NCBI GenBank assembly: GCA_947179485.1
Contig: OX359246.1
Span: 42,325,632-42,389,631, forward strand
DNA: 64,000 bases
Source: Allacma fusca
Lineage: Eukaryota; Arthropoda; Collembola; Symphypleona; Sminthuridae
Direction of reading: 5' to 3'
The position numbers were made by a program, and so were the translations under genes. The notes under the pieces are model-generated. The model saw only the letters and a list, made by a program, of their open reading frames with translations, made no database searches and was not told the DNA's origin. Of the stretch, positions 16,740 through 60,329 are shown piece after piece. Every line of letters begins with the position of its first letter. The first letter of the stretch is position 1.

Positions 16740-19290
16740 TTACAACGCATTTAGGATTGACAAGGTCAATTCTTTGTCAACAAATGTCACTCTTTTAGCT
16801 CCTACCTGGGTTGGTCTGGTTCCACCAAAAGGCTCTCGGAGCAAGTGTTTCGGGATTTGAGCAGCAACAGCTTCCTTCCAGTGCGATTTTTCCTCCGTGC
16901 CAAAAATTTCGAATTTGAGAGTCGGACTTTCCAAAATAGAACGTGAGATTTTTAGAATAGTATCCATAGCAGGAGAGCCTACAACAAAATAAAGACCAGG
17001 CTTGATTAAGACTGTGTTTTTTCTTTATGGGCAGGCGACCCTAATAGAAACGAAATGTGACCCCGAAATAATAATCCTATATGACGAAAAATATTATATA
17101 TATACCTGAAAGTTATAATATTGTTATTTCCCAACTACTGTAGCAATGCTTTAATGTGTGTGTACATATTCATTACATTTCTACGTATGCGCCATTGCTG
17201 TAGTAGCCCCATCTACACTTATTGTTAGCTTTAGTTCTAGTTTTAACAAAAAATAAAAGCTCATTTAAAACTCACAGTTCACGATAATAATTTTGGAAGT
17301 AAGCCCTGGAAAGTATTTTTTGAGTTTCTTGCTAACTTCCGTTACAGTTTGTATCACTGAAATACATAAATTATTGTTGATTTGTTTTATTACAAAAATA
17401 ATATTATGGTAGGTTAAAATAAATTGTAATTTCACATATGTATATTCCAAAATTAAAGCTTTCTGTACCATCCATGGAAGCCATGTCACTAGCAGAGAGG
17501 TTTGCAACATCTTGCAACATCACCACTCCCTCTGTAGAGTTTTCGGTGAGTGGTTGACCCGCAAATTTCCTTTTGTCAAGATCCAACAAAAGTTTTTCCA
17601 CGTGAGCAAAGCCTTGTACCGAATACGTAACAACATTCTCTCGTCCCCATTCTTTGAAAAGACGTGACATGTCTATGGCACCAACCTGAAGCGTCAAAAC
17701 TTTTGGGAACATACAATGTTTTGAAATATTGGCATGATGTTAGAAGCTACACGTCTACTGATAATGAAAATTATTCGGAGGGTATACACTAGTGATGTAC
17801 AAGTCACGACTGACTGACTGCTTCAGCAAAGACTGACTGATGCAAATAACTGACTTTGGACTGAATCAAAATATTTGGAGTGAGACTGAGACTGACTGGG
17901 ACTTAGAAGTTTATATATGAAGACTGATACTGACTCCCAGTTGATTGCATAACAATGAGAGACCGTACGACATCTCTATACATAAGACACCTTATTACGT
18001 GAAATTAAAGTGATTGTTTACAAAAAACGGCACTGTGTCTCCCTATAGCTTTCAAAAATTATTAAGGAGCCTAGATATGCACACAGGAAAAGATTTGGGA
18101 TAAAGAATTTAGGGTTAGTTGGCTTGAAATTCATTTATTGGACGTCCCCATGCTAATTAAATCTATACTCATACTCCCTTGGAAGAAAACAATCCACAGG
18201 TATAGATTCTCCTGCCTAGTGAGTACTTTTAAATTAAGCGTGTCCATCATTTTAGTTGCATTTTTTGAATACCAAAACACAATTATGTTGGCTCAAATAT
18301 TTTGCTTTCAATAATCTCGTTTACCACGTTGAAATTTAAGGCAATCAAAGGAGACCGAAATTCCTGTCATTCGAATACTTAAGCAAAATATTTAAGCCAA
18401 CATGATTGTGTTTTGGTATTTAAAAAATGTAATTACAACGACGCGCAATTACAAGACTGACTGACTAGACTGAGTCCGAAACTTTATAAAGTATGGACTG
18501 ACTTTGACTCAGTATTAACGAGTCCTGGAAGGAAAAAAACTGACTTTAGTAAGGGGTTCGAGAGACTGTGTACGACTTGGACTGAACTTTCACGACTTTG
18601 TACATCACTAGTATACACCCCAAACCATGTTATTACCTAACGAACCCTCTTTCGTCACAGCATCTGCAAACATGGGGTGCGATTCTAACCAATTCTCTGG
18701 AAAGGGTTCTAGGGCGAGTGAAGATATATTATTTTCTTTCCTCCATTTTGCTGCCTGTTAAAAATTAACTTATTGTTTGTCAACAATTATTAGCAATTAT
18801 AGTAATTGAAAGTAACATAATTATTTGATGCATAATGTTATTAACTGACTTAAATTATTAAATTGCTTATACTAAATTACCATGATAGCTTCAGCTATCG
18901 CCTTGAAATGAGCAACTTACTTTCCGCAATTTCTTCTCCGCCTTCTTCACGTCCGTTTTTCCAGCTTCAGTCAATAAATTTAGAGGGTTATAGATCTACA
19001 ACAAATTCTATTTCTGGCTACAATATTCAGTGCTTTTTGACATAATTACCTCTAATCCATCGCAGAAGGTAAAAATCATCTTCGTACAAGCTATCCTCTG
19101 GAATGATGTCTTGAATGGCTGCCTTTAGCTATGAAAAGATACGGATATCATCATTTCGAATAGTTAGCTCAAAGAGACAATCATAAAAGTTATCTTATGC
19201 GGATGGACTACACAATAATACAACAAAATGCAGGGATAATTTTACCTCTGCAATGGCTCCTGTCACATCAATTCGAGTAATTTTTCCCAT
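16740..19290 (-). CDS. SEC14-like / CRAL-TRIO lipid-binding protein
   Basis: Seven exons on the minus strand: 19290-19246, 19128-19050, 18964-18921, 18754-18637, 17699-17469, 17356-17276, 16978-16740. They join in phase to 278 codons plus stop. The N-terminal CRAL-TRIO-N helices are clear: DDFYLLRWIR followed after splicing by AGKTDVKKAEKKLRK, the family's LLRWLRARKF-KKAE-LR pattern. The SEC14 lipid-binding fold follows, including KKYFPGLTSKIIIVN (usual form YPERLKRI-IVNAP) and the C-terminal KHLLREPFGGTRP, matching the LP-EFGG end of the domain. Members carry a hydrophobic lipid or tocopherol/phosphoinositide between membranes; the ligand here cannot be read. There is no GOLD domain, so this is the short form. 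Intron 4 is much longer than the others because it contains a hAT element. Confidence 0.88.
17790..18610. mobile_element. Non-autonomous hAT element with GACTGACT arrays (intronic)
   Basis: Ends are inverted: TAGTGATGTACAAGTC at the left and the complement of TAGTGATGTACAAAGTC at the right. The 8-bp target duplication GTATACAC flanks it at 17782-17789 and 18611-18618. Sub-terminal zones near both ends are packed with TGACTGACT/GACTGAGACTG words. No transposase frame. It sits in intron 4 of the SEC14-like gene and leaves the splice sites intact. Confidence 0.85.
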
Positions 19291-24543: not shown

Positions 24544-26030
24544 GCAATAAATAGTGTATGTTCTAAATTTGCAAACCGAAAATGCAGAGTATTCTCATTA
24601 TTTCCGGATTTTTCTATGTTTGGGAGGGGGTACTGTTATTCGTCTTCACTTGCAACGTTGTTATTGTTCGTATGTAATTATTCAAGATTCAATTCCCATC
24701 TCATTTGGAAACCTATACATACGTGTATGTTATTTGCAATTTACAATAATAAGGGCATACTGTGCTTCTACCGTAAACGTAGCGCATTGGTAATGGCTCA
24801 TGACGACATAAAATAAAGCATTTAAAAAACAGGGAAAATATTACTTGGGAGAAGGTTAATTTTTAGTTAGCTTTTTTATTAGTTATTGCAGAATTTTAGG
24901 TGCTATCATTAGATAGGTTTGATTTGGTTATGTTTGAATAAGTTTAGGAAATTTCTCCTTTACAGGGAAGGTATTGTGAGCAAATATGACATCATTTGCT
25001 TGATTTTTTTTGTGGGTCAGCTTCGTAATGACACGGTAGCCTTGACTCTCCATGTAGTTCACGATTTCTTCCGCACCTCCCTTCCCGTGGACAAACTCAA
25101 CTGTGAGGACCTAATTTTTTCATACGTTTTTCAGCATTTTTTTGTAAATACCCACGCATCATAGTTTACTCCAGATCTTACCGTGATATTTATTAAGTGA
25201 AATGGAATAGTGTAGAGTACATTCATCTCAAAGCCCTCCACATCTAAGCTAAAGTAATCCACTGTCTTCACTCCTATGGAACTTAGCAGAGAGAATAAAG
25301 GGAAGCACTGCACTCTAACGGAAGATATTTTATTTTTTCCAGTTCGGGAAGATTCTGAAACATCTTCAACATTTTCTGACTTGATCTTACCGATATTAAA
25401 ATTTTGATTGAAAATAACCTAAATACATACAAAGTTTATTTAAGGTTTCAAGAGAAGTGTAGAATTTTGTCTAATAATAATTTTGCATTTTTGTCACTCA
25501 AATTAAGATCTGATACCTCATGTGGATAAGCATGAATAGACAAGCAACAAGAAGCAGCCCAGGCTTTACGATGTTTTGATATTAACAAATCAAAATTTTT
25601 AGGGTCAGCTTCTACTAACAGACCCTATATGGTATATTACGCAACAATAAATACATACATGGTAAGAATTCCTTGAAGTATTACGGTCACAAATTTGTGT
25701 AAGTGTTTTGTATAGCCCTTTTTACCTTCCAACTAAAATCCCTTTCCAATGCCAAGGTATTCGACCGGGTCTCGCCATCTAGTGCACCGCACTCTACGAA
25801 AAAACCGTTTCTCTGTATTAAAATAACTAACATTAAAAGGAAATTTAAAATAAAATAAAAATAACGCCGACTTTATTATTTACGATTTGTTGTTTTATTA
25901 CACACAAAATACACAGAACATACATACCTTCCCCTGAAAAAGTTTTTTTACGATCTCTGACTGACCCATTGATGGATCTATGTCTGGCTTTTGTAGGTTA
26001 TAGGACACATTAACAGATGGAGGTGGCTTC

Positions 26031-26854
26031 TAGAGCATCACCCCGTGGGATATTTTAGGCCCGTGCCCGCCCGTGGCTCGTAACGTTTTACCTGTACCCG
26101 CCCGGCCCGAAATTAATGTTTATCAAAAAAGCCCGGCCCGGCCCGCAAAATTAAAAAAAGCCCGTAGCCCGCCCGCAAATACCATACATCTTAAATACTG
26201 AAAAACTGTATAAATATTGGTGTTCTTGACTGTTACATACAGTCGTTAAACTACCTTGTTTATTAAGAAGGCAATACAAAAGCTTATGCTGCTATTTCGG
26301 CTTTGGTAAGCACTTCTGGTGGCGTTCTTGAATTTATTACAATGTTAACTTCTGGATTCTTATTACAAATACTTGAACTACTAGCAGGATTCATCTTCTA
26401 GACTAAATGGAATGTTCCACAGTAATGAAGAGCGAAATGAAACTTACTAAATAACAAAGGCAGGTATGCAAGAAAACTTTTCTTGCATACCTGCCTTTGT
26501 TATTTAGTAACAGTCGTATAGACGGGCACGGGCCTAAAATATCCCACGGGGTGATGCTCTATCGTACACCAAGACTTATTGTTAGTTTGTTTGAAAGCTA
26601 AAATTGCAAACGTCTGAAATTCGTTCGTCATTCAAGTCTATGACCATTCACAACCGCTGCTCCTGCATTCACAACTAATGAAATTTCTCACGGGCTTTTA
26701 CGGGCTTTCACGGTCTTTTTTAACCGCGATGAAAAGACCGTACCCGCCCGTAACCCGTCAAACGTAATAATTTTTACCCGTACCCGCTCGAAGCCCGTGC
26801 GGGCCGGGCTTTTTGCGGGCTTACCCGTAAATTTTAACCGCCCGAGATGCTCTA
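26031..26854. mobile_element. Non-autonomous hAT element with CCCGTACCCG arrays, in an exon
   Basis: Outer ends TAGAGCATC and GATGCTCTA are inverted; the 8-bp duplication GTGGCTTC flanks it (26023-26030, 26855-26862). Both flanks inside the ends are rich in CCCG/GCCCG words (ACCCGCCCGGCCCG type). No transposase. The first 38 bp (26031-26068) recur as an exact inverted copy at 26524-26561, so the element is compound. Confidence 0.88.
26444..26510. repeat. Near-perfect 33-bp-arm palindrome inside the hAT element
   Basis: Arms 26444-26476 and 26478-26510 are exact reverse complements around a single central base. The palindrome lies just before the inverted copy of the left terminus. Confidence 0.9.
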
Positions 26855-27273
26855 GTGGCTTCACAAAACCATGATTCTTGATGTAATTTAGAATTCTAGT
26901 ATCATCTTGTGGCAAACGCCCCTTAAAGTACTCCTCCAGGAAAATCTCATTCATAGTGGTAGCTGTCAATTTTTTGAAAAATACTTTAATGTAAATGTAT
27001 AACAAAATTACTTTTGTATTTCGCGATTTACAAAGAACAAGTTGGGGTTGTTGCTTAGGACGAAATATTAGAACTATAATTTTCCTAACACGATTGTTCG
27101 GTTAGCCGCCATTAGAAATGCTTACCATTTCTAGTCTTTTCATAACTGGTTGTTGATGTTTCGTCCGCACTAATTTTAATCGCACTAAATCTTCCAACAC
27201 AGAAAACAAATGCAAGCAATGCCGAAATTATAAGGCATCGCAAGATTATTCTCAATGTACTGCTGGAACGCAT

Positions 27274-28589
27274 TGGACCTCGCCTTTCGCTGGGTGAATT
27301 CAGATCCTGCTAATATTACAAAATGTAATCTGTGCGTACGTGTATTTTGAAGACATACGTTTGCCTATCAGTTTTCAATGGTATCTCACCTCATGGACTA
27401 CTATTTAATGTAATCTGTCGTAAACCTATAACTCGCCAATACAACAAGGTCCTTATCGGAAGACACACATGTATTGATTAGAAACTAAAATTTTAGTTGC
27501 ACGATAAAGAGAATTGCCTTAGTTGCGAATCTACCTGTATGTAGACTTACATAATTATAGTTATGCTATGTAACCATTTTTAAGGACCCACCATTGGAAC
27601 AAGAGGGAGTTAAATTAGCTTTAAGCGCATATTTGACCCTCAGAAAATGTTACCTTACTTACAACCAGTGGCTCAACCACGGGAGGGTACAAGGGGTATA
27701 TTGTACCTCTACTCAGACACCAAAGAGGTTACACTCAAAGACTATAGTACCCCCCCTCCCCCCAGAAAATAAATAAGAATAATTTTAAAACGTTAGAAAT
27801 AAACATTTTTTCATACTTTCTTAGTCTCCATCCGTACTTTTTTTAAATTATTGAATCAAAAGGTAAGAAGGAAGAGTGCAGAAACTCGTTCTTTGAATAC
27901 TGACGGAATAAATATTAACAGTGTCCCTCTCAAAAATTGTGGCCACGTATCATCCAATCCTGTAAGGCATGCTTTAAATAAAGCAAAAATCTTATTGCTG
28001 GTGACAACCATATGTAATAAATCCTTACTTTCCCTTACAAACGGAAGTTTAATTTTCATCATCGTCAAATCATGTTATTCCGAACATCACTTAACCCTGC
28101 GACCTCAAATATTAGCGAACGTGAATGAAGTAAATTTTATAAAATCTAACTAAAAATCTTGCTAAAAACCTAGGGATCAAATCATGAGTCATTTCCCTGA
28201 TGTAAGCTACCGGGGTTGGGAAATGATTATGGTTACTTCGTATATACTGCATTTGTCAGCTATTGTATGTTATAACGTTGTAAGGACCAATTTGTACCCC
28301 CCCAGTAAAGAATCCATGTCCTGATTTCAACGACACGTAGTTCGAAACTATTTGCGCAGATAGATAAATTGAAAATTGTGCATAGATTTGAAATTAGTTT
28401 TTATCATCTAGAACTATAAATGTAACGAGCACATTTCAGACCATTGAGGTAACTATCTACTTAAGTTATCTCTCAAATGAGTAGGATCAATATTTTTACT
28501 TAGGATAAAGGGATGGGATGTTACAAAATATGCATGCTTTCTGTTACTTATTCAGTTCATTGTTCATCCTCATCCACAGTAGTGACAAT
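27274..28589. other. 5' flank of copy A Star-like gene
   Basis: Promoter side of gene A. The sequence is shared with the corresponding parts of copies B and C, including the CAACCACGGGAGGGTACA block. The open frames near 27600 and 27850 are not conserved in B or C, so they are not genes. Confidence 0.5.
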
Positions 28590-28870
28590 CAGGGATGGGA
28601 ATGGATTATTAATCCCGGGTTTCAATTGTTTGAATAAATAAACAATCCCAGTGCTAATCGAAGGGTTGATCAAACTTGAATCTAATCCTTATTCCTCAAT
28701 CCCGGCTCAATGAATTTATTTGAATCCATAATCCTAATCCAAATTGGTTGCATTCTACGAATCAATCCTTAATCCTAATCCAATTATTGATGTAGTATGT
28801 GGTCAATCCTAACTACAAAATCCACTTCAGTTAGCAGTGTGGAACATGGATTGGATTGTTGTGCTGCCGG
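28590..28870. mobile_element. Decayed hAT copy with ATTAATCC motifs (shared with copy C)
   Basis: Starts CAGGGATGGGAATGGATTAT right after GTGACAAT, exactly as the better preserved element at 41139 in copy C. It is filled with AATCC/GGATT words, but its right end is lost in a deletion. Confidence 0.7.
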
Positions 28871-29976
28871 TAGGTTTTGTATTATATTAGTATAACTACT
28901 AATTTCATCCTATGATAATTAGCTTCCATTATTCTGCACCTTGAATTGATTGAACTTCTATCTTGTATCGCAGTTTGCACTCGCAAAGTTAACGTTTCCA
29001 AATACGACTCATGACACGCCTTTAGTTTCAAGTAGAAGTAAGTACAATGTAAAGCAAATATAAAACCGAAGACTTATTTAGTCCGAGTTAATCTAGTGTG
29101 GACTTACAGCAGATAAAAGTGGAGTGAGCCGAAAAAATAAAAATGCCTCAAAACCCAGTAAAACGATAAGTAATAATTATTCTTGATGAAAAGTTTACTG
29201 AAACTGTATACTGAAAGTAGTATAGACAAAGCAAAGTGTCTGGCAAGAGATTTTTTTGCGCAAGCGTTGTTCATGCGTTTGTTTACTTCTATATGTACAT
29301 GTAAGTTTTTTAATGAGGTAATTTTGTCTTGTAACGCAAATTCATATATATTATTAGTGGATTTATAATAATGCAAATCAAATGGGTTCTGTTTTTTAAC
29401 TGATTACACGGATTCAACAGTGCAATAATATAATTACTTTAATTTGTGTAAATAAATTAAACCTGGTAGTTAAATTATTTGGATACATTTTGATAAGTCC
29501 CTTATAGCACAAGTCAAATTCATTGGATTTTTAGGGTCAGTCTGTCAATATAAAATATGCACTCTGAATTTACTTTAACCAATCTGTAAATCTATTGAGA
29601 TTTGTAGCAAGGATAAATTTTTTATGGGTGCATTTTGTCTCATTAAAATGGATCCTTCCTTATGAAGGATATTGTGTTATAATGGATGTTGTATTATAAG
29701 GGAACTTTCCTTTATTTATAAGGGATTAATTTTTACTAAGAAAAACAGTAAACCTGCTATAAGAGACTGAACATCATCAACAAGATCTTTGGACATGGAC
29801 AGTATGGAGTCATTGCAGTTTATAGCGTTATCCGTAATGCTAATTTTTGCTCCTCTGTAAGATGTCATTTCACAAAATATAGGGGCTGAAAATTGAGATT
29901 TTGCTGATTTGAAGGGTGTTGTTATAAAAAGGTCAATTATTTTGTGAAAAGGGATTAATTTACATAGCACCACAAA

Positions 29977-30000
29977 TTATGTAATATATATATATATATC
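29977..30000. repeat. AT dinucleotide microsatellite
   Basis: Short run of TA repeats in the 3' flank of copy B; not present at that length in copy C. Confidence 0.8.
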
Positions 30001-30547
30001 TATACTATAATAATTTATTATAATAGTTCATAGATAAAATTTAGAAAAAACAACTTCCTCTGGATCTTAGGCCGAAATTTCCAACAATTAGTGTCAATGA
30101 CAAAGCTAAGCTAAACAATATTGAAAAATGTCGCCAGAGGGAATAATATGCAATAAATATTTTGTACAAAATTTAAACTGGAAAATGTAAAGTATTCTCG
30201 ATATTTTCGGAATTATTTATATTTGGGGAAGGGTACTATTATTCGTCTTCACTTTACACTTGTAAATACAATGTAATTATTCAAGATTCAATTCCGTTTA
30301 CCTCATTTGCAAATTTACGTGTATGCTAATTTACAATGACATGGGCATACCGCATGCTTCTAACACAGAAAACAGTGCATTGGTAATGACTCATGAGGAA
30401 ATAAAAATTGTACAATATTTCAAAAACGGGGGAAAATATTTAAATGGACGATGTTAAATATTAAATGGGAGAACGTTAATTTTTAGTTAGTTTATTTATT
30501 AGTTATTGCAGCCTTATACGTGATATCCTTAGATAGGTTTGATTTGC

Positions 30548-32698: not shown

Positions 32699-33771
32699 CA
32701 GGGTTGGCAAAATGAAAATGCCCTCGGTTTTTTGCCTGCCCGCTTGAAAATGCCCTGAAAATGCCAAAAATGCCCTGAAAATGCCGAAAATGCCCAACTT
32801 TCAAAATTCCAGGCCATTTGGGCATTTTCGGCAGGCATTTTGGGCATTCTCGATTTTTTTTGTAAATAATCATTATTTACCGCTCTTGTTTAAAGATTTT
32901 TTTAAATATCGAACTTCATTTAAAAATATATCTTTTACAGAATGAATTAATGTAAAGCGTAGCAATTTGCAAATTGTTAGTATTCCTACATCGTTTCTTC
33001 TCCTGTGTATTACTGTATTAATCTAATTCAACAATATCCTCAACATCAACTCACCTTCGGACTCGTGAAAAGTAAAACTATAATTTTCTTCGTCATCTAA
33101 AATATTTTTTTTCCAATTAGGAGACTGCATTTATATTTTATACACATGATAATCATGTCTAATTTGTTTTGATGAACTCGGTTCTGGATTTGTTGAGAAT
33201 GATTTGACCAAAGCTGATTCTTGTGAACTTAAAGCGATTTCTTTGGTCACATCGTTATCGAGAGCAATACACGTTTTGGTACTACATTTGGATGATTCCC
33301 GTTTTACCTCCACTGGGGCTTTTAAACTTTCGTGCGAGCACGCCAGTTTATAGTATAATCCAACCGCTTGTTATGAAAGTAATTACACAACAATTTATTT
33401 TTACCAATGTCTGACCAATGAAGTTGAATATTGTCGTTGATTCGAGGTGTCGGGATTAAATCTCAAGTTAAAATGAAAAAAATGGAATGAGATTTAAAAC
33501 AATGATAATAAAAATTTTAGTATAGTGAATCAAGACACGCTACAATAATTAATGAAATTTCAGGTATGCAATTATAAAGATATTTGCATTGGTTCGAACA
33601 AAATATGTATCGAAATTTACCTTGCTAAAAATTAATAGATAGCGTCCAGTCTGAAGTATCCCAAGAAATGATTGAATATGCCCTAAATGCCTGCCCTACG
33701 CGGATTATGCCAAAAATGCCATGAATTGAAAATGCCCAAAATGCCATGACATTTTCAATTGGCCAACCCTG
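32699..33771. mobile_element. Non-autonomous hAT element with AAAATGCC arrays (1)
   Basis: Left end CAGGGTTGGCAAAATGAAAA; right end is the complement of CAGGGTTGGCCAATTGAAAA. The 8-bp duplication ATCGTAAT lies at 32691-32698 and 33772-33779. AAAATGCC(C) words crowd both ends, with unrelated AT-rich sequence between. Copy C has the empty site near 39716 (CTGATCGGAAGACAC). Confidence 0.9.
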
Positions 33772-33823: not shown

Positions 33824-34766
33824 TAGGGTATGTCGATTGAAAATGCCCTGCAGTACTTGCCCGCCCAGCTGAAAATGCCCGAAATGCCTGCCCACATGCC
33901 CAAAAACTGGGCATGTGGGCAGCTTTTGAAAATGCCCTGATTTTGGGCATTTTGGGCAGGGCAAGTTGGGCATTTTGGGCATTTTCATGGCACCAAAATT
34001 GGATTACTAGCATATATTCAGAATATCCACCCAAATGCATGCAAGCGCAGCCAAGGAAAAGTTACAAATGTGGATGTCTGGTTATTCGCTTCTTCGCGTA
34101 TATTTTAATGGCAAAAACAGTCAAATCAATTTAATTTCATTGACATGAGTTGATATCATTTATCACTCCTATGAAAATAAATTTCTATGTAAACAATTAT
34201 ATGAAATAAATTTACATATGCGTCACTGACGGGCGGGCAGAAGTACTATTTTCTTTTGAAGTACGAACTCTTAAAGTAAAAATATGATGGTAATGGATCA
34301 GTCTAAATTTAAATGGGTGATGTAGCTGAATTTTATACTCATCTTGGAAAAATAGTTCCTAGAATATTTTAATTTATAGCCCTATCGTGTACTGTACAGG
34401 TGTTTCACAAATTGTAATGTTCAATATGACCTATGGTATCCAAATGTATTTCATCACCGGTTGAATTAACTTAACTCAAAATAATGACATACAGAATAAA
34501 CTTTTCAAGATAATTTCGAACGCTTTTTCTCCAAAATTACAACGAAATTTTCAAATTCATTGTCAAATTGTATAGATTGTTCTATTATATTCCACGATTC
34601 TGCCCAAAATGCCCAATTTGTCCTCGATGAAAATGCCCAAAATGCCCTTGCCCAATATGCCCTATTATGGCGCCCTCGCCCTGAAATGAAAATGCCCAAA
34701 ATGCCCTGGCATTTTGGGCGGGCGAGTTGCCCAAAATGCCGGGCATTTTCAAATCGACATACCCTA
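33824..34766. mobile_element. Non-autonomous hAT element with AAAATGCC arrays (2)
   Basis: Ends TAGGGTATGTCGATTGAAAA and the complement of TAGGGTATGTCGATTTGAAA; near-identical 8-bp flanks GATACATA (33816-33823) and GATATATA (34767-34774). The motif array is the same as in the element before it, but the outermost TIR differs. Confidence 0.85.
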
Positions 34767-41138: not shown

Positions 41139-42020
41139 CAGGGATGGGATTGGATTATTAATCCAGGATTAAATTAATCCCGGATTGATATTTTCAAAAT
41201 AAATAATCAATAATATATTATATTAGTACAGCTACTAATTTCATCCCCTGATAATTAGTTTCCATTATTCTGCACCAATCAGCATTGGATTGAACTTTTC
41301 TCTTGTATCACAGTTTGCACTTGCAAAGTTAACGTTTCCAAATACGACTCCCATGACACGTCAGTAGTTTCTAGTAGAAGTATGTAAAGCACGTATAAAA
41401 ACGAAGACGAAGGTTATTTAGTACGAACTTACAGTAGATACAAGACTTGTATCTACTTACAATTAGTGGAGTGAGCCTAAAAAAATTGATGGATTTAAGT
41501 ATAATAATGCATATCAAATGGCTTCTCTGTTTATTTTAACGGATAACACTGATCCAACAGTGCAATAATCTACTTTTATCTGTGTAAATGAATTGAACCC
41601 TGTAATTAAATTATTTGGATACATTTCGATAAGCCCTTTAGCGCAAGTTGAATTCATTGCATTTTTAGGGTCATATGTAGTCTATCAATGTAAAACATGC
41701 ATTTTAAATTTAGTTTGACCAATGTGTTAGTCAAAAACAAATTTTAAAATTATTCTACTTCTTCAGATAGCTGATCAAATTCAAGTTTTCAGATTATTTG
41801 CAAATCCTCAATAAGTGCAATCCGAAATTTCAAATTTTAATTCTTCAACCCGTTAATTCAATTAATTAGGATTTTTTTGACAATCCCGTAATCCAAATCC
41901 AGATTTAGGAGTTTCTTTTACTGCCGGCGAATCCCTTATTCCAAACCATACAATCTGAATTTTTGTTATTGATCCCTTAATCCCATCCACCAGCTCACCT
42001 AATTAAATTTCCCAACCCTG
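41139..42020. mobile_element. Non-autonomous hAT element with AATCC motifs
   Basis: Begins CAGGGATGGGATTGGATTAT and ends AAATTTCCCAACCCTG. Flanks are GTGACAAT (41131-41138) and ATGACAAT (42021-42028), one mismatch. AATCC/GGATT words are concentrated at both ends. The same insertion site is occupied in copy A (28590). Confidence 0.8.
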
Positions 42021-43026: not shown

Positions 43027-44007
43027 CAGAGCTGCTTTCAGGTAGCAAAAAATCAAGATCCGCACCTGAACCCGACCCGCACCTGAAATATCAGGTTAAT
43101 TTTTTTCGTTGACCCGAACTTGGCCCTCCGGATCCGAGTTAATATCCGCACCTGTCAGGTATTTTTGGATCAGGTATTGCTTGGCTACCCGCACCTGAAA
43201 AAATACCTGAGGTGCGGATTTCAAAACAAACCCGACCCGAACTTGAACCCGAACTTGAACCCGACTTTCAATTATTTTGTCAGAGGAAACTTATAAACAT
43301 AAGTTCTATCCTAAGACTTTATTAAAGTAAATATTATTTACAAATGACGTTAAGTTACAAATGCAAAAACTCGTACTAATTTTAAGTGACAAGCAGCACA
43401 AAAAGAATGGGAACTAGCTTTTGAAGCTTCCCCAAGTATTCTCTGAGTGATAGCTTTAGAAACAGACCGCAGATAATCATCATGCTTTTCAAATTTTAAC
43501 GAAGTTAAGGCACAAGTATACACGAAATAGATTCCAAATCGATGATGTCTATGTCTGCTACAACGCTAAGGCTATATCATGAAATTAATTAGCAAAGTTA
43601 GGTTGTTTGTTAATTTAATTGATATGGCGGCTCTCACGCATCACTGAACACATCGTGTCATTCAGCCATGTGACATTAACGTTCAGATCAGCCTGAAAGT
43701 TTCATTCACGTGAACTTAAAGTTAAATTATTAAGGTAAAAAATACTTGCAAAATACCTGAAATTGCAAGTTCGGGTTCAGGTATTTTGAATTCGTCGTAC
43801 CGAACCTGTACCTGACATTGAGCTCAGGTATATTTTTTAAACCCGAACTTGATCGTAACCCGACCTGTAAAATCAGATGCGGATCCTGGATGTACCCGCA
43901 CTTGACCCGAATCTCAGGTACTTTTTTTTGTAGCTGACCCGAACCCGACCCGAACCCGACCCGACGGGTATTTTTCAGGTACTACCTGATACCTGCAAGC
44001 AGCTCTG
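43027..44007. mobile_element. Non-autonomous hAT element with ACCCGAACCTG arrays, in an exon
   Basis: Ends CAGAGCTGCTTTCAGGTA and the complement of CAGAGCTGCTTGCAGGTA; exact 8-bp duplication TCCACGGT (43019-43026, 44008-44015). Terminal zones are made of ACCCGAAC, ACCTGA and CAGGTA words. The interior (about 43260-43720) is ordinary AT-rich sequence without a transposase frame. Confidence 0.92.
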
Positions 44008-46199: not shown

Positions 46200-46201
46200 T
46201 A

Positions 46202-47787: not shown

Positions 47788-47795
47788 GTTCCAAA

Positions 47796-49103
47796 CAGTG
47801 CTCGGCACGGGTACGAAAAATCGGTACCCGTACCCGTATCCGTACCCGAAGTGCGGGTATTTCAATAACTGGTATCTATACCCGTACCCATACCCGAGTA
47901 TCCGGGTACAAATTTTTCGTACCCGTACCCGCAATGTAATCTCAATCCATGCACCTGTACCCGTATTGTACCCGTACCCGAAAATACGCGAAAATTGTAC
48001 CCATACTCGGGTATATCAGTGTCGTACCCGTACTCGTACCCGGGTACTTTATCCAGATTTGTTTTAATGTAATACATAGTACGTTATATGTAATAATGTA
48101 TGACACCTGAGTGGGTAATTTTGACTAGTTAGAGAGGTATTTGACATTGTATATTTTTATTGAAGAGTAGAAAACTATAAGCGTTTTTGATTAGAAGTAA
48201 AATTATCCCCATTTGATTGTTTATGGGCTGATGGGCGAAGTATTTTATAGCACCCAGTCAATATGTACATGCATTTTTGGCTTGGGACTTGGCTACTCGA
48301 TTTTTCACTTCTTGATTTATTCGGCCTTTTACGTTAATTTTCTCATCTCAGTAGCTCTGTGTACATGAAACTCATTAATATCTTGTTACAAATATCCGCC
48401 TTTTCCTAATCAACTACCAGTTACAAAAAATATCTTACCATGCCATCCAACTCATCGGAACTCTAATTTTTAAATTGTATTCATTGTGGCTACGTGAATA
48501 CGTGTCAATCAGACTATTTTTGCAATTAGTGACAAAATACTACATTATGAAGACCATTTGTATAAAATTTCGTTGAATCCTATTCTCCACTTCTATTTTG
48601 ATATTATTCCTCGTCTGTTTATTAATTATTCTTCCTAAAACATGTTTCCATAAAAATATATATTATAGATATAAATATATATTTTAGCAACACAGTCTGA
48701 AATACAGTTGCTGCATGTTGTAAGGTTAAAAGGGTATCAACAATAAGCTATATGTATTCAGAATCACTAAAAATACCGACAGAATTTTCCAACGGAAGTT
48801 CCATTATTTTCATAAAATTCATCAAAATGTCTCAAATCTCAACATATCCAAATACTCGGGTACAATGGTCGCGGGTACGGGTAAATGACACCATTATACC
48901 CGTACCCGGTGGGTATATACCCATTTTGAAATCCTTGTACCCGTACCCATACCCGTATCCGTACCCGAGATTTTGAGCCGACCAAAGTGTACCCGGGTAG
49001 TACCCGGAATTGTTCGGGTACACAAAATCCGTACCCGGGTAGTACCCATACCCGTACCCATACCCGTTTACCCGAGTATTACCCATACCCGTGCCGAGCA
49101 CTG
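47796..49103. mobile_element. Non-autonomous hAT element with CCCGTACCCGTA arrays
   Basis: Ends CAGTGCTCGGCACGGGTA at the left and its complement at the right; exact duplication GTTCCAAA (47788-47795, 49104-49111). Both ends carry about 250 bp of tandem TACCCG/CGGGTA words, with 700 bp of AT-rich interior. The tyrosine-proline repeats in the translated frames are an effect of this hexamer, not protein. Confidence 0.93.
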
Positions 49104-49111
49104 GTTCCAAA

Positions 49112-49762: not shown

Positions 49763-51148
49763 TTATTTATTAGTCAATATGAGTGCAACCAAATTCGTCA
49801 CGATGTAATCTACGAAGGTAGGTGTAGAAGTTCTCTCAAATGTATGAAAGCCACCAACCTTGATTCCAATGCATGGAACTGATTGAGTCATTTTTGTATT
49901 ATAAAGATGGTTAATATGAAATCTTCTTGATGATTCTCTCATCAAATTTCTAAGTTTGTTTATGGTACCAGGAACCCCAAACGCCTTGTCGTACATTAGA
50001 ACAAACAGAATAACGAAATCTAGTCCTAGAATGAAGTACGCCGCCGCCTCAACAGGGTACATCCTGTGGAATTTAAAGGCTGCGAACCAATACAGAATGG
50101 ACGATGTTATAGCGTATATTTTGTAGGAGAAACAAACATATGCAAAGTTATGATTGAAGAGTTGTATTTCCAGTTGCAGTCTTCGACAGAGCTTCAAACC
50201 CGAGTCTATGCTTTCGGATATGTCAAAATTGGTTGAACCAGGATTCCTGTAGATATCCAAAATATATTGAAATAATACCTAATTAACAGATTTTTTAACA
50301 CGAAAGTTCACGAAACTTACAGCAAATTTTGCGTCTTCTCTTCAACCAGGGAAAATACCCGGAGGAAGAACAAAACTTGAAAGAAAATTCCAACGGCAGA
50401 AACTGAAGTTGGAAAAATCAATAAGAAGATGTCCAACCCGGTGCAAGCTGCATACAGGTACTCGTGCTCATATCCAAGCTGTCGAACTAAAGTGAACACG
50501 GTGAATATTCTTTTGGGTTTGAGAAGAAACACGAACCCCCCAACAAACGTTGCCCCGTATAATGTGCACGGGGCTATGATAACAAATAGTTCTTGAAGGG
50601 AGTAGCTCTTCCAATTTATCTTTACCTTAGAATATTCTCTGTCTTGTTTCTTCTGTCGATCTACAATTTCCGAAAGTAAAGTAATTCAGTACATACATAT
50701 GTAAATAGCAACGGAAATTTGTACACGAATATGAATTTGGTTTAAAAAATGTTGAATTTGAACACGCGTTGTTTATGACAACTGGAATCTTACCTTCGTA
50801 ATTAAACATTTCATTGAAGATCAGAACCGTTGTCTCAGGCCACACCAGGTACAAACTTGTCGACCACGAGAAGAGCATTATAAAAGCAGCAATAACGACA
50901 CAGTGCATCGGAAAGTCACGAATTCTCATCATTTCTGGGTATATCAGCTGGAATAGCCATGTTGCAGTGTAAAACAGAATTTGAAAAATGGAGTAGGCGT
51001 AGTGAAAATAGAAGAGAAATCTTCTCCATCTCTGTGACTGAATCTGAATTTTCCCCGTGTTTCTGTCAACGGTGAATGGAAAGAAACATATTTGAGAAAG
51101 TATTTTCAAATGAATGATATTCCAGCGAAGTTCTCTAAGTTTGAGCAT
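49763..51148 (-). CDS. Gustatory-receptor-like 7TM chemoreceptor, copy 1
   Basis: Three exons (51148-50794, 50660-50321, 50246-49763) join in phase to 392 codons plus stop, a usual size for arthropod gustatory receptors. There are about seven hydrophobic segments (for example FYFHYAYSIFQILFYTATWL; HCVVIAAFIMLFSWSTSLYL; LFVIIAPCTLYGATFVGGFV; LDIFLLIFPTSVSAVGIFFQ), no signal peptide, and a long loop before the last two helices. The C-terminal end GGFHTFERTSTPTFVDYI resembles the 'G-F-hydroxyl-TF' end of GR proteins, although the textbook TYhhhhhQF motif is not clear. Ligand unknown. The stop codon overlaps the sequence AATAAATAA, which also offers a poly(A) signal. It is the downstream member of a tandem pair. 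Confidence 0.72.
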
Positions 51149-53192
51149 TTTTCAGAAAGGAGCTAGTTACAAACATTACTTTAAACGCTTACAATGGACC
51201 TTAGCACTGACTGACTCGTCAGACTCAAGAGAAGTTCAAAAGTATTATGCCGTTACTAATTCAAGAGCAGGCTATGGGTTCAAATATTATTCAAGTTTAG
51301 AATATTACATTTAATTTGTTTTCGCTGTGCCCTGTTCCTGTTGTTATAAAAGAAGTTGATAAGAAATTTGTTGGGAAATATGGTGCGCAAATCTGAAGTA
51401 GCTAATGCCATATTTACTAATTTTTAGTTGTTTCAAAATAACGGGAATAATTATTACTCACCCGAGAGTTTCCTGAAAACAACAGTAATTTAACCATCAC
51501 TAATTAATTGTATGAACAAATACTGCCCTGAAAGTAACTTGGACACTCACATGAAAGATTATAAACGGAAAATATTTTTGATTATTGTGTATTCAAATCA
51601 AGCAGGACTGACAACAGATTACTGGAATTACATCGCTGAGCACACACAATCACATTGTGATAGACAATTGGAAAGGTCAAGCTTGTATTTGTTATTTATT
51701 TTCCCGAATAAAAATACGTTCCTGGTTGGCTTAATTAAATTAATAGCTTGGTGAGAAAAACAGAATCACTTCCATTAAAATGCTCGCTTCATCATATTCT
51801 GAGTGCATGGGTTAAGGGCTTATCAAATATTTGTATATTTTTTATTTTGTAGTTTTCCAGTTATTTGTGTAAAAATATAAAACTCAATAACAAAAATATG
51901 GTTACGATTGATTTCTCATCAGAGAACTCATAATGTTAGAGGAAAGGGATATTTGAGCCTAGTGAAGGTGAAGATGTATGACTGGAGTTCTAGGAACTTT
52001 GAGTTTTCCTCCAGTCAAAAGATTAATTAATAATAAAAGTAATAATTAATACAGAGTGTGAGTTGATCGTTCTAGGATCCCGATTAGGATATTAGATTGT
52101 GAGAATAAAATAATTTTGTTGTACAAATATTGGAATACAAGTTAAATAGGGTTAACTGCGAGTACAAGAAGGAATAAATGTTCCAGAACAACTAAAACCA
52201 ATATTGACCTTACAATTATATACCAATGATAATAATGATAATTTCAATTGTAAATGCTCCATCTCTCAGGGAAATTATTAAGTGTCATTTTAATTATCCT
52301 TTCCATATATAAATGTATGTACATTCAAATTTTCACTCTTGAGCTGGTTTTAATTTAACTAACGTCGTTGCCATAAGTCATAAGTTAAAATTTTTATTAC
52401 AGATGGAAGTTGATTTACTACTGTGTAATGCAGAGATGTCAATTCCCAATTGTTGGATTAGTGATTACGATTAATGATTGCTTAAAAAAATGAGTCCTTA
52501 CTGATTATCTCAGAAAAATATACCCAATATTAATTACGCTTTATGACTATACTTGTGGAAAAGCTACTGATTAATGATTACGATTTACGATTAAAATGAA
52601 AACATTTGTCGCTTAAATATTACGATTGACAATTATTTTGAAAAATCTATTGATTAGTGATTTCGATTTATGATTACTTCAAAAAAGCTACCGATTAATG
52701 ACTGCGATTAATAGAAATTGAATGACATTATTTTCATGCGGTTTTCAATTCCCTATTTTCGGTAATGACTGTTTGGGGAAACAATTTTTACTACCAAGAG
52801 CAATTCATGGCTACATTTAAATCCTGTAATACGAAATCAGTTAATGAGGGATGTATTGTTTTAAAGGGTGGAATTTGTCGGTCCCACCAATAACATATTT
52901 GATTGAAGGTGGATGGATTTATACCTTACAAATGGTATAAATCATATTAGGATTCGCTGCATTTAAGGGACTAAATAAACCTGTCTCTAGGACATCTTAT
53001 ATAACAAACTTTCATATTTCTTCAAGTGGCCGGTTTGCCGCCTTCTACGAACCCTTTTTTGAAAGCTAACCTTTGAAGGCTGGACATTTCTATTTGAAAA
53101 ACTATTGAATTGATGACTAGAGTAGAGACAAGGGTGTTACTGCTTTGTGACAGCCTGAACGCGCAGCAAATAGTAGTGATTTGTGTTATTAT
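51149..53192. other. Spacer between the chemoreceptor pair
   Basis: Contains the promoter of copy 1 (initiator-like TCAGTCAGTG in the minus sense near 51210-51219) and, at 52432-52735, a block of GATTAATGATTACGATT words that looks like a decayed motif-array element. Open frames at 51114-51754 have no support. Confidence 0.45.
52432..52735. mobile_element. Probable hAT remnant with GATTA/TACGATT motif array
   Basis: Starts CAGAGATGTCAATTCCCAAT, which fits a hAT 5' end. Repeats ATTAATGATTACGATT-type words throughout, and ends in AATTGAATGACATT, a partial inverse of the start. No exact target duplication found. Confidence 0.5.
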
Positions 53193-54612
53193 TTATTTAT
53201 TAGCCAATATGAGTGCCAACAAGTTCTTGAAAATAAAATCTACGAAGGTAGGCGTAGAAGTTCTCTCAAATGTATGAAAGCCGCCGACCTTGATTCCCCT
53301 GCATGGAACTGATTGAATCATTTTTGTATTATAAAGATGGTTAATACGGAACCTTCTTGATGATTCTCTCATCAAATTTCTAAGTTTGTTTATGGTACCA
53401 GGCACCTCAAACGCTTTGTCGTACATTAGAACAAACAGAATAACGAAATCTAGTCCCAGAATGAAGTACGCTGCCCCCTCAACAGGGTACTTACTGTGGA
53501 ATTTAAAGGCTGCGAACCAGTACAGAATCGACGATGTAATACCGTAAATTTTGTAGGAGAAACAAACATATGCAAAGTTATGATTGAAGAGTTGTATTTC
53601 CAGTTGCAGTCTTCGACAGAGCTTCAAACCCGAGGCTATTCTTTCGGATATGTCAAAACTGACTGAACCAGGATTTCTATCGATATCCAGCATGTATTGA
53701 TATAATATAATACATATTCATATTGAAATAATACCTAATTAAGAGATTGTTTATCACGAATGTTCACAAAACTTACAGCAAATTTTGCGTCTTCTCTTCA
53801 ACCAGGGAAAATACTCGGAGGAAGAACAAAACTTGAAAGAAAATTCCAACGGCGGAAACTGAAGTTGGAAAAATCAATAAGAAGATGTCCAACCCGGTGC
53901 AAGCTGCATAAAGGTACGTGTGCTCAAATCCAAGCTGTCGAACTAAAGTGAACACGGTGAATATTCTTCTGGGTTTGAGAAGAAATACAAATCCTCCAAC
54001 AAATGTTGCTCCGTATAATGTGCACGGGGCTATGATAACAAATAGTTGTTGGAGGGAGTAGCTCTTCCAATTCATCTTTACGTTAGAATATTCTCTGTCT
54101 TGTTTCTTCTGTCGATCTGTAATTTCCGAAAGTAAAATAATTTAGTAATTACATACATACATATGTAATTAGCTTAGGAAATTTGTACACGCATATGAGA
54201 TTGGTTTAAAAAATGTTGAATTTATAAACACGTTGTTTCTGAAAACTGAAATCTTACCTTCGTAACTAAACATCTCATTGAAGATCAAAACCGTTGTCTC
54301 AGGCCACACCAGGTACAAGCTTGTCGACCACGAGAAGAGCATTACGAAAGCTGCAATAACGACGCAGTGCATCGGAAAGTCACGAATTCTCATCATTTCT
54401 GGGTATATCAGCTGGAATAGCCATGTTGCAGTGTAAAACAGAATTTGAAAAATAGAGTAGACGTAGTGAAAATAGAAGAGAAATCTTCTCCATCTCTGTG
54501 TCTGAATCTGAATTTTCCCCGTGTTTCTGTCAACAGTGAATGGAAAGAAACATATCTGAGAGAGAATTTTTAAATGGCTGATGTTCCAACGAACTTCCTC
54601 TATTTTGAGCAT
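53193..54612 (-). CDS. Gustatory-receptor-like 7TM chemoreceptor, copy 2
   Basis: Exons 54612-54258, 54116-53777 and 53676-53193 have lengths 355, 340 and 484 nt, exactly as in copy 1, giving 392 codons plus stop. The protein differs at scattered positions (for example LKIEEVRWNISH for LKLRELRWNIIH at the start, and VDFIFKNLLALILANK at the end), and introns and 5' flank are also alike, so duplication is recent. Topology and family reasoning are as for copy 1. AATAAA again overlaps the stop (AATAAATAAATAA). Confidence 0.72.
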
Positions 54613-54675
54613 TTTTCAGTTTGGGCCTGGTTTCAAGTGTTGAGGTGTTGTTGAGCGTTTACCCAGGATCCTTGC

Positions 54676-54940: not shown

Positions 54941-56700
54941 GGGATGTGCCACAAATGACGTCATCCAAAAATCTTGCAAATTACGACTGACTGTCTAGAT
55001 GATCATTCGTCGTCTCATCGAAGGCTGACTGACTGTGTATGACGTCATATGTGACTGTATATATGGGTATAATATAATGTCATAGGCTGCTTTATTATTT
55101 AAAAATTAGAAGATTAACAATGACTTCTACTGTGAACAAGTGAGAAACTAAAATCATCAGGTACTTGTACTAATTCATGGGTAAATTCAAATAGGTCAAA
55201 GGTAATTTGAACTGGGTCGCTCATTCGGTCAATAATTTTATTATAATGTAACAAACACATTTTACAGTAGAAAAACAATTTCACCTGTCAAATTTTGAAA
55301 ATCAGCTTACTCCTGTTTGTGCCTTAACACTTCATATAAACAAAATCACAAAGAACTGAAGTGGGGTATTGTGGTAAAATATGCGGGACAGAAAGGTAAC
55401 TTGACAGACGAATGGGCGTATACGTAGGTTTTACTTAAAAACATTTTTAATTAGGAAATTCACTCAAATCGCACGAAATAGCTTTCCGCAACATCCGGTC
55501 AATGGTGCTAATTATTACAGCTGCAAAAGAAAGTTTAAAAAATTATGGAGTCACAATAGATGGCGAGATTATTACCTTGCACTACTGTAATAATGTATAA
55601 CAAATGTGCGTTTATATGGGACATATACTTTTTCAAGGCTGGATAAATGACACTACCTCCTTTAAAATCAATACCTCTGACAATTAAACTGGTAGATAAC
55701 GTGTCCACGTGGAAATGTCGAATTATCTAGTGACGCTCATTCGGTAATAATAATTATTATTCTGATTATAGACAAGATGGAATTAATGATATTTGCAACT
55801 ATAGTATGATTTAGTGGGCTAGTATTTATTAATATAGGTATGCACTAAGAACCATTACAGTTATGCACAGTTTGGTAAATGTTGACTGCGCCACCTGTCG
55901 ATGGTGCAGGTATTAGCAGGTGTTTATATGTAACCATTTTGGTTTCCTCAGAAAGAAAATATATTCGACAGACGGTGTTTGCTGGAAGATAGGTTCAGTC
56001 TTATGATGTGAGGAAATTTAAACAAGGCATATGCACACAAATGCTTATACATACTTCTCCGACAGGTGACGCAGTCGATGTGTTTTGTATAACTTTTAGT
56101 TTCCAAGATGTGTCAATAAATCCCCACACATTTCAAATTAAAATTGTAATAGCACAATTTTAACTCACCGTTACTTAAATTGTGTTGAAACTGTCTGCTT
56201 TAAAAAACTAACAGCAGTTACTCTGTCCCGTGTATTACTTATTGATATAACTCTTCGATGTGACTTCGTGAATTATTGATGTTGTCATGTCATTGTTGTA
56301 CTAGTGATTTTGGATGATGAAATCCTTATAAATTAATGCCTAGGGATGGAGTTTGTGGCTATTAAAATTTCGCGCTCTATTTTGAAGATAAGCGCGCCAG
56401 ATTTAGGCATACAGTAAGCCTCCACGACTGGGCTTGATTTGTAAGCGGCTGACTCTACACTCACACTACCACCTCTCGAAGTAATTGTTCCTGTGAAGCA
56501 CAGGGCGGCTACTAGTCTATATTTAAACTTACGAATTCGCACGGGATTTTATGTAGAAGTAACGAAGGGTCTGGGTTAAATAGGTGCGGAAAAATGACGT
56601 CATGTTTTGAAAAAGGGTCTGACTGAGTACGTCATATTAAATCATGCAGAGGCAATATGACTGACTGACTAAATGCATGACGTCATTTGTGGCATATCCC
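54941..56700. mobile_element. Harbinger-like element (1) with TGACGTCA-bearing ends
   Basis: Inverted ends GGGATGTGCCACAAATGACG and the complement of GGGATATGCCACAAATGACG, flanked by TTA on both sides (54938-54940, 56701-56703). Three-base TWA targets and GGG-starting TIRs are typical of PIF/Harbinger. TGACGTCA/ACGTCAT and GACTGACT words recur near both ends. No transposase frame; the open frame 56333-56542 has no family resemblance. Confidence 0.7.
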
Positions 56701-57269: not shown

Positions 57270-57702
57270 GGGAGCGTTCACAAATGACGTCATCAAATTA
57301 GTGGGTGGGTGCTAACGGGAGATGATGATGTTGATGACGCAGTGGTAGGGTGGATTTGACCAAATGATGATGTCATCAACCGACGAATGTTACCAACGAT
57401 TTTTTTGCTTAACCGTTAACAGTTTTGGTAGTTTGATTCAACCTGCTTCGACTTGCTTACTTGCCGAGAATGCCCAAAATGCCAGGCATGTTCAAATTAA
57501 GACATTTTCAGGACATTTTCAGGGCATTTTTAGGTAGGCATGCATAAAACCCAGGGCATTGTCAATTGTGCAGTCCTGGTGATGATGACGTCATTACATG
57601 GGGTGGGTGCGTCATTTCATCACATGATGATGTCTGATGACAAGTGTGTGACTGGGTGCCTAAAAACCAGTATTTTGGATGACGTCATTTGTGAACGCTC
57701 CC
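57270..57702. mobile_element. Harbinger-like MITE (2) with TGACGTCA-bearing ends
   Basis: Ends GGGAGCGTTCACAAATGACG and its exact complement; TAA on both sides (57267-57269, 57703-57705). Inside are many TGATGATGTCAT/GACGTCAT words, and at about 57470-57587 a decayed piece of the AAAATGCC hAT family. Confidence 0.8.
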
Positions 57703-57705
57703 TAA

Positions 57706-58412: not shown

Positions 58413-58420
58413 GACAGCAT

Positions 58421-60329
58421 TAGGCATTGGCATACCGATATAGCCATACGATATTATCGTCCATATCGCACATTTTTGGAAACGATATTGAACGATAATT
58501 ATCGTAAACTTAGAACGATCTATCGGTCAGTTTGCATATCGTAAATACGTGGTCCAGTTTCCAAAAACAGTACACAATACTACCCAAATACTAATTCACC
58601 CCCAAAATTTTAATGTCTGTTCACTAATTCAAAACATTCAGTCAGCTCATAATAATACCATGTAAATTACTATACTAGATGTAGCTTACGGGATTGCTCA
58701 TTGTCAGAACCAGTTTTTCTTTAATTAATACCAAGTTTGTTTTTGCTGGAATCACAGCAAACTTGGTGGAACCTCCGTGATTCCTTATTGTCCTCACCAG
58801 CAGGGTTGCTCAAATGAAAATGCCATGACATTTTCGGCATCATGCCTGCCAAAAATGCCCTAGCATTTTGGGCATTTTCATTTCATGGCATTTTGTGCAT
58901 CTACGGCATTTTGGGCATTTTGGTTATATTCAGCCTAGAGCAGGCATTTTAGGCATATTCGCTCCAATTTTTTAAATATATGGTTGTCGCTACCTGCTAA
59001 TTTTGCAAAATATGTCACAAAAAAGTATATTGCAAATAATTTTAATATTCAACTGGATTACATGATAAAATTATAGAAACAAACGGTTGAAACCTGGAGC
59101 AAGTTGATATAGACATATTTATGGAAAAATAATAATAATTCTATTTTACTTATTTTGTTGTAAAAATTCGCTTGTACACCGTGTCTGTAATTATTTAGAC
59201 TTCAAGAACAAACTTGTTCGGGTAAAGATGCGACACAAAAAGATAAAATAGTTGTTAAAAGATTTAAAATATCTTTTTTTGTGAGCTTCAAAACTCGTCA
59301 TCATCTACATAAATATATTTATTATATTATATTTTTATATAATATATTGTTACATTTTGGACTCCTGGAATTATTACACTGGTATACTAGGGCTAAATGC
59401 AATTTTCAAAGTCGAAACAAAATTTGCTACGGAAGCTCCAAGCTTTGACATATATTATAACCGTCGCATCTTATGTATCTAATGAAAGTATAAAATTGTC
59501 TATACTTTACACGCCATTATCAAAATCCGGAATTTGCAAACTATACTGTGCAAATTGTTCTTTCCAAATCCCAAAGTTTTTTATAATGTACAGCGTTGAA
59601 TGTTTGCAACTCCGTTGGGGCTTAATTTTTTTTAAGGATTATTGAAATAACCACTGGCCATAAGTAACGAATTGGACGAAATATTTTTTTAAATCAACTA
59701 TAACCTTTTCTAAAACTGGATGGGTTTGATTATTCTATGAAAAACTCCCTTATATTCGCTAAAGCGCAATAATGGTCATAGTGTATAAGTTTCTGTAAAA
59801 ATGCCCAATATGCCCAAAATGCCTGTCGAAAATACCCAAAATGCCGGGCATTTTCGGCGTTTTGGGCATTTTCAGGAGGGCAGGCATAGAACCTCATTTT
59901 TCATTTGCGCAACCCTGCTCACCAGTTTCAGAAAAATGAATACCAATTATGTTGTTGGTGGATATAAAATATACTTGGTTTGCCTTACGTAAATCCTCCT
60001 TGTCAGCACCAGTTTTCATTCAGTTAATACCAACTATAGTCTCTTTGGAACGGGATCAGCAAAAAGCAAAGTTCTTTGATAATGTTTCGAACAATGAGTT
60101 TTTTTGGCTATTTTTGTCGTAAACAGTAGTAATGAAGTGAGTACTTAACTAATCATCAATACTTTGGCAGTTTTTGGTCTATTATTTTTGCATTTTCCAT
60201 TATTAACCTTTGCGTTTCAAATTGAAATAAATATCGTTATATCGTCCTTCGATATCGTTATCGTCATTTTTAGGATGAACGATAACGATATTAACGATAT
60301 TTAAAAAATGACTGATATGCCAATGCCTA
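58421..60329. mobile_element. hAT-like element with CGATAT/ATCGT arrays, host of a nested hAT
   Basis: Ends TAGGCATTGGCATACC and the complement of TAGGCATTGGCATATC; exact 8-bp duplication GACAGCAT (58413-58420, 60330-60337). CGATATTATCG/ATCGTTATCG words lie inside both ends. It contains a second complete hAT; without that insertion it would be about 780 bp. Confidence 0.9.
58801..59917. mobile_element. Non-autonomous hAT element with AAAATGCC arrays (3), nested
   Basis: Ends CAGGGTTGCTCAAATGAAAA and the complement of CAGGGTTGCGCAAATGAAAA; exact duplication CTCACCAG (58793-58800, 59918-59925). The TGCCCAAAATGCC arrays match the two elements at 32.7-34.8 kb. Confidence 0.92.

Follow-up and report, generated by a model that had tools for sequence, protein, structure and literature searches.

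A 64-kb stretch of the genome of the collembolan Allacma fusca (C8:42325632-42389631, hereafter the window) holds a series of elements with inverted ends, most of which carry dense copies of a short word just inside each end, and the question that it raises is what these elements are and what the words do. An initial annotation, made from the letters alone, counted at least nine such elements with 8-bp target-site duplications (TSDs), assigned them to different hAT families and proposed that each word is the binding site of one transposase lineage. We found here that the set is real: nine elements of hAT type (A to I, Table 1) carry site arrays specific to their families, an assignment that is well supported for H and C and is made by form for the other seven. 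It is probable (roughly 85%) that all nine are non-autonomous members of several hAT lineages and that their words are docking sites for the BED finger of a partner transposase.

Nine elements and their copies in the genome

The strict detector required a terminal inverted repeat (TIR) of 12 bp starting YAG with at most two mismatches, an 8-bp TSD with at most one mismatch and a length below 2.5 kb. It returned exactly nine elements in the 64 kb, against two matches in total over 19 control runs across the window in which the second TSD was displaced, and this bears out both the number first given and the view that these are hAT-type insertions. A looser rule gave an element count for the 64-kb window that was no better than that of its own controls. 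The TSDs are exact in seven elements and have one mismatch each in C and E. Five of them (A, C, D, F and H) follow the pattern nTnnnnAn, as had been claimed for several, and the fit is incomplete in B, E, G and I; among 46 unique exact TSDs from the window and from loci fetched for this analysis (L numbers below), most of which were retrieved through their own TIR, T occupies position 2 in 35 and A position 7 in 31. The ends of H (TAGTG) and C (CAGGG) start in hAT-like fashion, and the other seven elements all pair their 8-bp TSD with a YARNG-like TIR. The description of the ends as mostly YARNG holds in general and fails for G, which starts TAGGC and deviates at the fifth base.

Empty sites were sought by joining the flanks of each element and comparing them with the window and the fetched loci, and matches spanning the junction were found for four of the nine. 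Element I has two paralogous matches (96% and 91%), which lie inside the window near 31627 and 39101, B has three paralogous matches (76-79%) with a single TSD copy, D has one (81%, in 39586-39761) that is imperfect at the TSD, and F has matches in locus L079 (73-76%); the same search gave none for A, C, E, G or H. The matches of I and B, with one TSD copy, and the imperfect match of D are explained by local duplications in the window.

Across the 392.7-Mb assembly, eight end patterns covering the nine elements, with one to three mismatches allowed, matched 5,637 places, compared with 12 for the reversed patterns that served as control. By family (control in brackets) there were 1,573 (0) matches for A, 723 (8) for B, 207 (2) for C, 1,507 (0) for D/F, 897 (2) for E, 135 (0) for G, 26 (0) for H and 569 (0) for I. 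Both ends were present in 20 of 30 A loci, with an exact TSD in 18 and one mismatch in two. The 13 B loci comprised eight with an exact TSD, one that was off at two bases and four with one end only. Both ends were seen in four of nine H loci, the TSD being exact in two (one of them the window copy), off by one base in a third and without a match in L088, and in nine of 17 D/F loci, which represent seven distinct places.

Transposase-bearing partners

The initial annotation turned on whether any autonomous hAT with matching ends exists in this genome. For the partner search, 150 of 860 hAT-domain candidates were scored and up to about 100 end places were listed per family; copies that have the same ends and word and are predicted to bear a transposase are present for two window families, those of GACTGA (H) and AATCC (C).

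The partner of H lies in L088 (C5:54213299). The first 196 bp and the last 613 bp of H match this element at 97% and 93%, respectively, and the 3.6 kb missing from H corresponds to exons of the L088 element with Pfam matches to zf-BED (E 7.4e-7) and Dimer_Tnp_hAT (E 2.7e-12). The junctions carry neither a TIR nor a TSD, which indicates that H arose by internal deletion rather than that the partner contains a nested insertion. Position 196 is joined to position 3804 of the L088 element in five of eight H loci (L081, L082, L084, L085 and L086); L086 is the window copy itself, and in L081 a D element separates the two positions. The L083 locus is identical with the L088 place, and L080 and L079 run on into the coding interior. 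The statement that element interiors are unrelated DNA is thus not borne out for H. With the H transposase as query, the top five genome places by score lie 0.7-1.6 kb downstream of an H-type TIR, and the two among them at 68-69% identity have a variant TIR.

The same query also weakly matched (29% identity) three places that each lie about 1.65 kb inside a C end. A search with the C-type protein gave five places (three at 98-100%, one degenerate at 61% and one 63-residue piece at 95%), all 1.6-1.8 kb inside a C TIR, and none of its places at 52% or less was near a C end, as judged by eye among the matches listed (100 of 207). One C partner copy has AATCC/GGATT 17 times in its first ~280 bp and twice in the next ~940 bp, followed by an exon that is BED-like by eye. 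The catalytic part of the putative C transposase has 29% identity to the H query, and its DUF659 and rve matches are weak and below cut-off. Three further transposase-bearing elements, L010x, L002x and L007x, have matching TIRs, exact TSDs and the words AAGGCA, CCTATA and CCTTCA, respectively.

In the proposed mechanism, a transposase supplied by an intact relative would read both ends of an element, each made up of a short TIR tip, an inner edge and an array of one 6-10 bp word in one or both orientations. The catalytic part would act at the tip. Docking of the N-terminal BED zinc finger at the inner edge and at the array sites would pair the ends and raise the chance that the copy is excised and reinserted with an 8-bp duplication. 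Three points here are inferred: the role of the word as BED site, a gain in mobility from the array, and the existence of partners for the seven elements other than H and C.

An unlikely alternative is that some of the nine, above all D, E and F with their common word AATGCC, were moved by an enzyme of another superfamily that makes 8-bp duplications, such as a P-like one. P-like enzymes do generate TSDs of 8 bp. Comparison by eye of the end places listed for A, B, D, E, F, G and I gave no transposase-bearing copy, which speaks for this alternative and against the preferred reading, and the P-superfamily element Galileo is likewise reported to have long ends with several binding sites (PMC3688188). 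Against it, the CAGGG/TAGGG tips and nTnnnnAn TSDs of D and F match hAT, and the sole coding sequence found between D ends belongs to a nested element with a 2-bp TSD. This last case, L087, was considered as a D partner because the copy, 3,779 bp long, has a 470-aa frame between its D ends and so seemed to be autonomous. It was rejected: the insert (L087:779-3448) has its own TIR (CCCAGTTAGCACAAG), a 2-bp TSD AT (by eye), a tnp2-like frame and a weak DUF4218 match, and D aligns without a gap on either side, so that the insert is a nested element. Descent of D, E and F from hAT lineages remains the preferred reading.

Two more candidates were set aside. L064 was examined as a B partner, and its B element (186-2026) is non-coding, the hAT gene sitting outside it. 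The L001 gene was examined for an A partner at C1:21567848; about 5.5 kb separate its hAT domain from an A end upstream, and a strict scan of L001x (L001 and L051 joined, reverse strand) gave only a nested GTTCCG element. In L011-L013 the distance between the hAT domain and an A right end is about 650 bp, and the A element lies beyond that end. The nested element (L001x:954-1934) is of hAT type, with a GTTCCG array (L12/R8), TIR TAGAGCTTCC and TSD TTTCTAAG. The surrounding hAT transposase region (L001 and L051, C1:21560617-21568100) contains the palindrome ACAAGCATGCTTGT six times in exact form within 7.5 kb, in introns by eye.

Word arrays, inner edges and transposase lineages

The arrays were assessed by taking the best word common to both ends, with the first 12 bp excluded, and scoring 4,000 random segment pairs in the same way. 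An equal score was reached by none of the 4,000 pairs for A and at frequencies of 0.0005 for E, 0.0008 for B, 0.0010 for F, 0.0013 for G, 0.0015 for H, 0.0027 for D, 0.0080 for I and 0.0398 for C. Eight of the nine window elements are therefore at or below 0.008, and C, at 0.04, has the weakest array. Ten more representatives gave values of at most 0.014 in nine cases and 0.41 in one (L028), these ten being partly dependent in that one is the H partner and two are of one family. First-order Markov shuffles of each end (300 shuffles) were also scored; this null permitted all 6-mers, homopolymers among them, and its ranges were broad, and it was replaced by the random genomic segment pairs. Only A, B and H lie above all 300 shuffles, and F ties the maximum. 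GACTGA is absent from the middle of H, as CGGGTA is from that of A (end counts in Table 1), and AATCC occurs at 185 exact places across the whole window.

Word arrays are present at both ends of all nine elements, where the initial annotation had claimed them for most. Its list of words needs two corrections: ACCCGAACCTG is absent on both strands, the measured words being ACCTGA/ACCCGA, and CGATATTATCG occurs once, the measured word being ACGATA. The claim that words are family-specific survives in the form of seven word groups, because D, E and F have one word in common.

It is improbable, to a greater degree than the involvement of another superfamily, that the arrays have no docking role, arose incidentally as low-complexity ends underwent replication slippage or gene conversion, and are simply carried along by the elements. 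Tandem Repeats Finder does report short tandem runs within several ends, L007 has a ~28-bp tandem unit containing the word, and some of the counts are reproduced by the first-order Markov shuffles. However, in 16 of the 19 representatives at least one end holds the word on both strands (H, the H partner and L073 are one-stranded). When words were aligned with 8 bp on each side, a conserved core with low flank information was seen in B, H, the GTTCCG element and the ACTTGA sister family described below, and a longer conserved core in A, D and E. In the first four arrays the neighbouring bases carry little information, which indicates that the repeated unit is the short word itself, and the alignments favour repeated short sites over slippage of longer units. 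Slippage would also leave unexplained why the word matches the inner edge of the TIR, why edge and array change together and why related transposases share a word.

The association with the edge is close. The own word was found at positions 10-34 in 23 of 28 ends, compared with 13 of 364 for foreign words, and none of 20,000 permutations was as extreme; the test covered 14 of the 19 representatives, with E, F, H-auto and L049 excluded as repeats of a word group and L028 for want of an array, and, to its disadvantage as support, is partly circular because the edge formed part of the ends from which the word was picked. D, E and F differ in their tips and have the inner edge and the word in common. 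The converse is seen in a sister family of B, nested in L090, which has the same tip as B (CAGAGCTGC) and the inner edge TCAAGT where B has TCAGGT. Over the whole element, ACCTGA and ACTTGA number 15 and 4 in B and 0 and 34 in the sister (one full copy), three other B copies having 17 and 5, 17 and 3, and 9 and 5; the end pattern of the sister matched 1,881 genome places, with one in the control. Judged from these ends, the word evidently goes with the inner edge of the TIR and not with its tip.

Words also appear to follow transposase lineages, as first proposed. Besides the partner copies of H and C, the transposases of L064 and L088 have 51% identity over 89 C-terminal residues, and GACTGA arrays come after both; L007 and L008 have CCTTCA in common. 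L010 and L002, with 69% identity over 89 residues and a common tip (CAGTSRTGGGCA), have differing words. These pairs raise the possibility, which we offer tentatively and with the odds somewhat against it, that sister hAT lineages keep the TIR tip while, in step with changes in their BED fingers, the inner edge and some tens of array sites are altered together, sometimes by a single base (ACCTGA to ACTTGA), leaving a natural record of binding-specificity switching. If so, BED-finger binding specificities could be read directly from genome sequence. Setting the BED finger of each partner beside the word in its own ends would yield a table of protein-DNA specificities, and the same pairing would test directly whether extra docking sites make non-autonomous copies more mobile. 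This switching of words between sister families is the most interesting part of the analysis and is directly testable.

A further sign might come from conservation. In 13 copies of A it falls from the TIR (0.998) through the word (0.983) and the spacer (0.974) to the interior (0.964), with a Fisher p of 0.014 for non-CpG word against spacer in a test that ignores relatedness. As a sign of selection on the words this gradient is suggestive only, and it lends correspondingly weak support to the idea that amplification of the sites has been repeatedly selected.

Several results weigh against the proposal that the words are docking sites in hAT elements. At the seven distinct D/F places with both ends, the TSD is exact in two, has one mismatch in four and four mismatches in one. 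The L088 partner copy, read across both ends, has no TSD. Pfam reported no BED domain in the first exons of L010x, L002x and L007x, though C/H residues are visible there by eye. Element C shows no excess over the Markov shuffles (6 against a mean of 6.4), and L028, one of the 19 representatives, has no array. In only six of 22 hAT gene loci does the downstream word count (8 or more) exceed the whole control range, and those of L010 and L015 stem from a neighbouring element.

Word clusters were counted in loci retrieved other than by the TIR concerned, a small and selected part of the genome, in which 32 of 49 lay within 150 bp of a cognate end and the remainder, except that of L057, at or near another element end; arrays equally frequent without TIRs, which would have told against the initial annotation, were not what was found. 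That the words are ordinary satellite repeats, equally frequent without element ends, is accordingly very improbable: all 15 of 15 D/E/F clusters are at their cognate TIR, and those more than 150 bp from their own TIR (4/12 for A, 11/16 for the two words of B and 2/6 for H), which might have suited such a view, comprise four A clusters at I or B ends, B clusters at A ends (L011 and L021) or beside them (L012, L013, L039, L041, L042, L049 and L050), two B clusters 164 and 249 bp from a B end, one H cluster that is the end of the related element L064, and one (L057) that is similar by eye only.

Neighbouring features and known systems

Table 1. Elements and element ends in the window (L and R, word counts at the left and right ends)
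Feature	Position	Strand	Description
Element H	17790..18610	.	TIR TAGTGATGTACA, TSD GTATACAC, word GACTGA L8/R5; probable deletion derivative of BED-hAT element at C5:54213299
Element I	26031..26854	.	TIR TAGAGCATC, TSD GTGGCTTC, words AGCCCG/GCCCG
Second C-type left end	28590..28850	+	AATCC array; right limit approximate, right end undefined
Element D	32699..33771	.	TIR CAGGGTTGGC, TSD ATCGTAAT, word AATGCC L9/R4
Element E	33824..34766	.	TIR TAGGGTATGTCGATT, TSD GATA(C/T)ATA, word AATGCC L7/R8
Element C	41139..42020	.	TIR CAGGGATGGGATTGGATTA / CAGGGTTGGGAA, TSD (G/A)TGACAAT, word GGATT/AATCC
Element B	43027..44007	.	TIR CAGAGCTGCTT, TSD TCCACGGT, words ACCTGA and ACCCGA
Element A	47796..49103	.	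TIR CAGTGCTCGGCACGGGTA, TSD GTTCCAAA, word TACCCG/CGGGTA L17/R18, zero mid-element
Element G	58421..60329	.	TIR TAGGCATTGGCATA, TSD GACAGCAT, word ACGATA L6/R7; hosts nested F
Element F, nested in G	58801..59917	.	TIR CAGGGTTGC(T/G)CA, TSD CTCACCAG, word AAAATGCC

The second C-type end has the left flank TGACAAT in common with element C, and is apparently a copy of that insertion made by local duplication. Local repeated blocks with pieces 78-92% identical occupy 24544-28039, 29815-32697 and 37310-40436 and contain frames that are FkbM-like by eye. Open frames at 31502-31873 and 37996-38487 contain the paralogous empty sites of I and B, so that the two insertions hit gene copies. On the minus strand, 49763-51151 and 53193-54615 are adjacent receptor-like genes (gustatory-receptor-like by eye) that are 88% identical over 1.5 kb.

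Two non-coding elements of another kind lie at 54941-56700 and 57270-57702. They have 3-bp TSDs (TTA/TTA and TAA/TAA), TIRs that start GGG and have CACAAATGACGTCA in common, TGACGTCA at both ends and GACTGAC or GATGATG words. PIF/Harbinger elements are recognised by a 3-bp TSD of the TWA type and a TIR starting GGG, and both elements conform to this rule. The array design may therefore extend beyond hAT. Inside the second of them, at 57476-57570, is a degenerate D/F-type end with AATGCC-like words, for which no left end was seen.

The general design of the window elements is familiar from known hAT systems. In maize Ac/Ds, the Ds deletion derivatives retain both ends and lose the gene. Element H is alike in keeping both ends with the gene lost, and differs in its word and TIR. 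Hermes, the house fly hAT, has a short TIR and many copies of a short site at both ends, as here: 17 and 14 BED sites of the form AAG(T/C), densest near the tips, and a quasi-palindrome immediately internal to the left TIR; a BED/STR structure is also available for it and fits the docking reading (PMC10368747). The goldfish element Tgf2 has 17 and 18 subterminal repeats, and truncations of its transposase that lack the BED finger lose end binding (PMC4890040); its likeness to the window elements lies in the repeat arrays at both ends and its difference in the words. Herves of Anopheles gambiae carries a family-specific motif in several copies at both ends that is bound by its transposase, and its authors note that such motifs vary among hAT transposases (PMC3143072). 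Binding was demonstrated there, whereas the present case consists of sequence arrays. Four hAT-encoded BED proteins bind motifs that match their own subterminal regions (PMC8097297), and arrays of subterminal repeats are considered typical of hAT elements (PMC10368747, PMC4890040, PMC3143072, PMC8097297).

With such numbers of sites already known from Hermes and Tgf2, the remark in the initial annotation that arrays of this length are unusual does not hold, and its rule, being documented in Hermes, Tgf2, Herves and the hAT BED proteins, was right in kind but not new. Among the titles and abstract openings of literature on Allacma transposable elements and on collembolan hAT or DNA transposons, none describes the present families, and an Allacma fusca genomics paper (PMC9630974) has no whole-word mention of transposable, repeat or hAT. 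What the window holds, then, are new families of a known kind of design. Unlike Hermes and Herves, each a single family, this genome offers many parallel families with 6-10 bp words, mostly as non-coding elements, with thousands of end matches and with related pairs in which the word differs and the tip is conserved.

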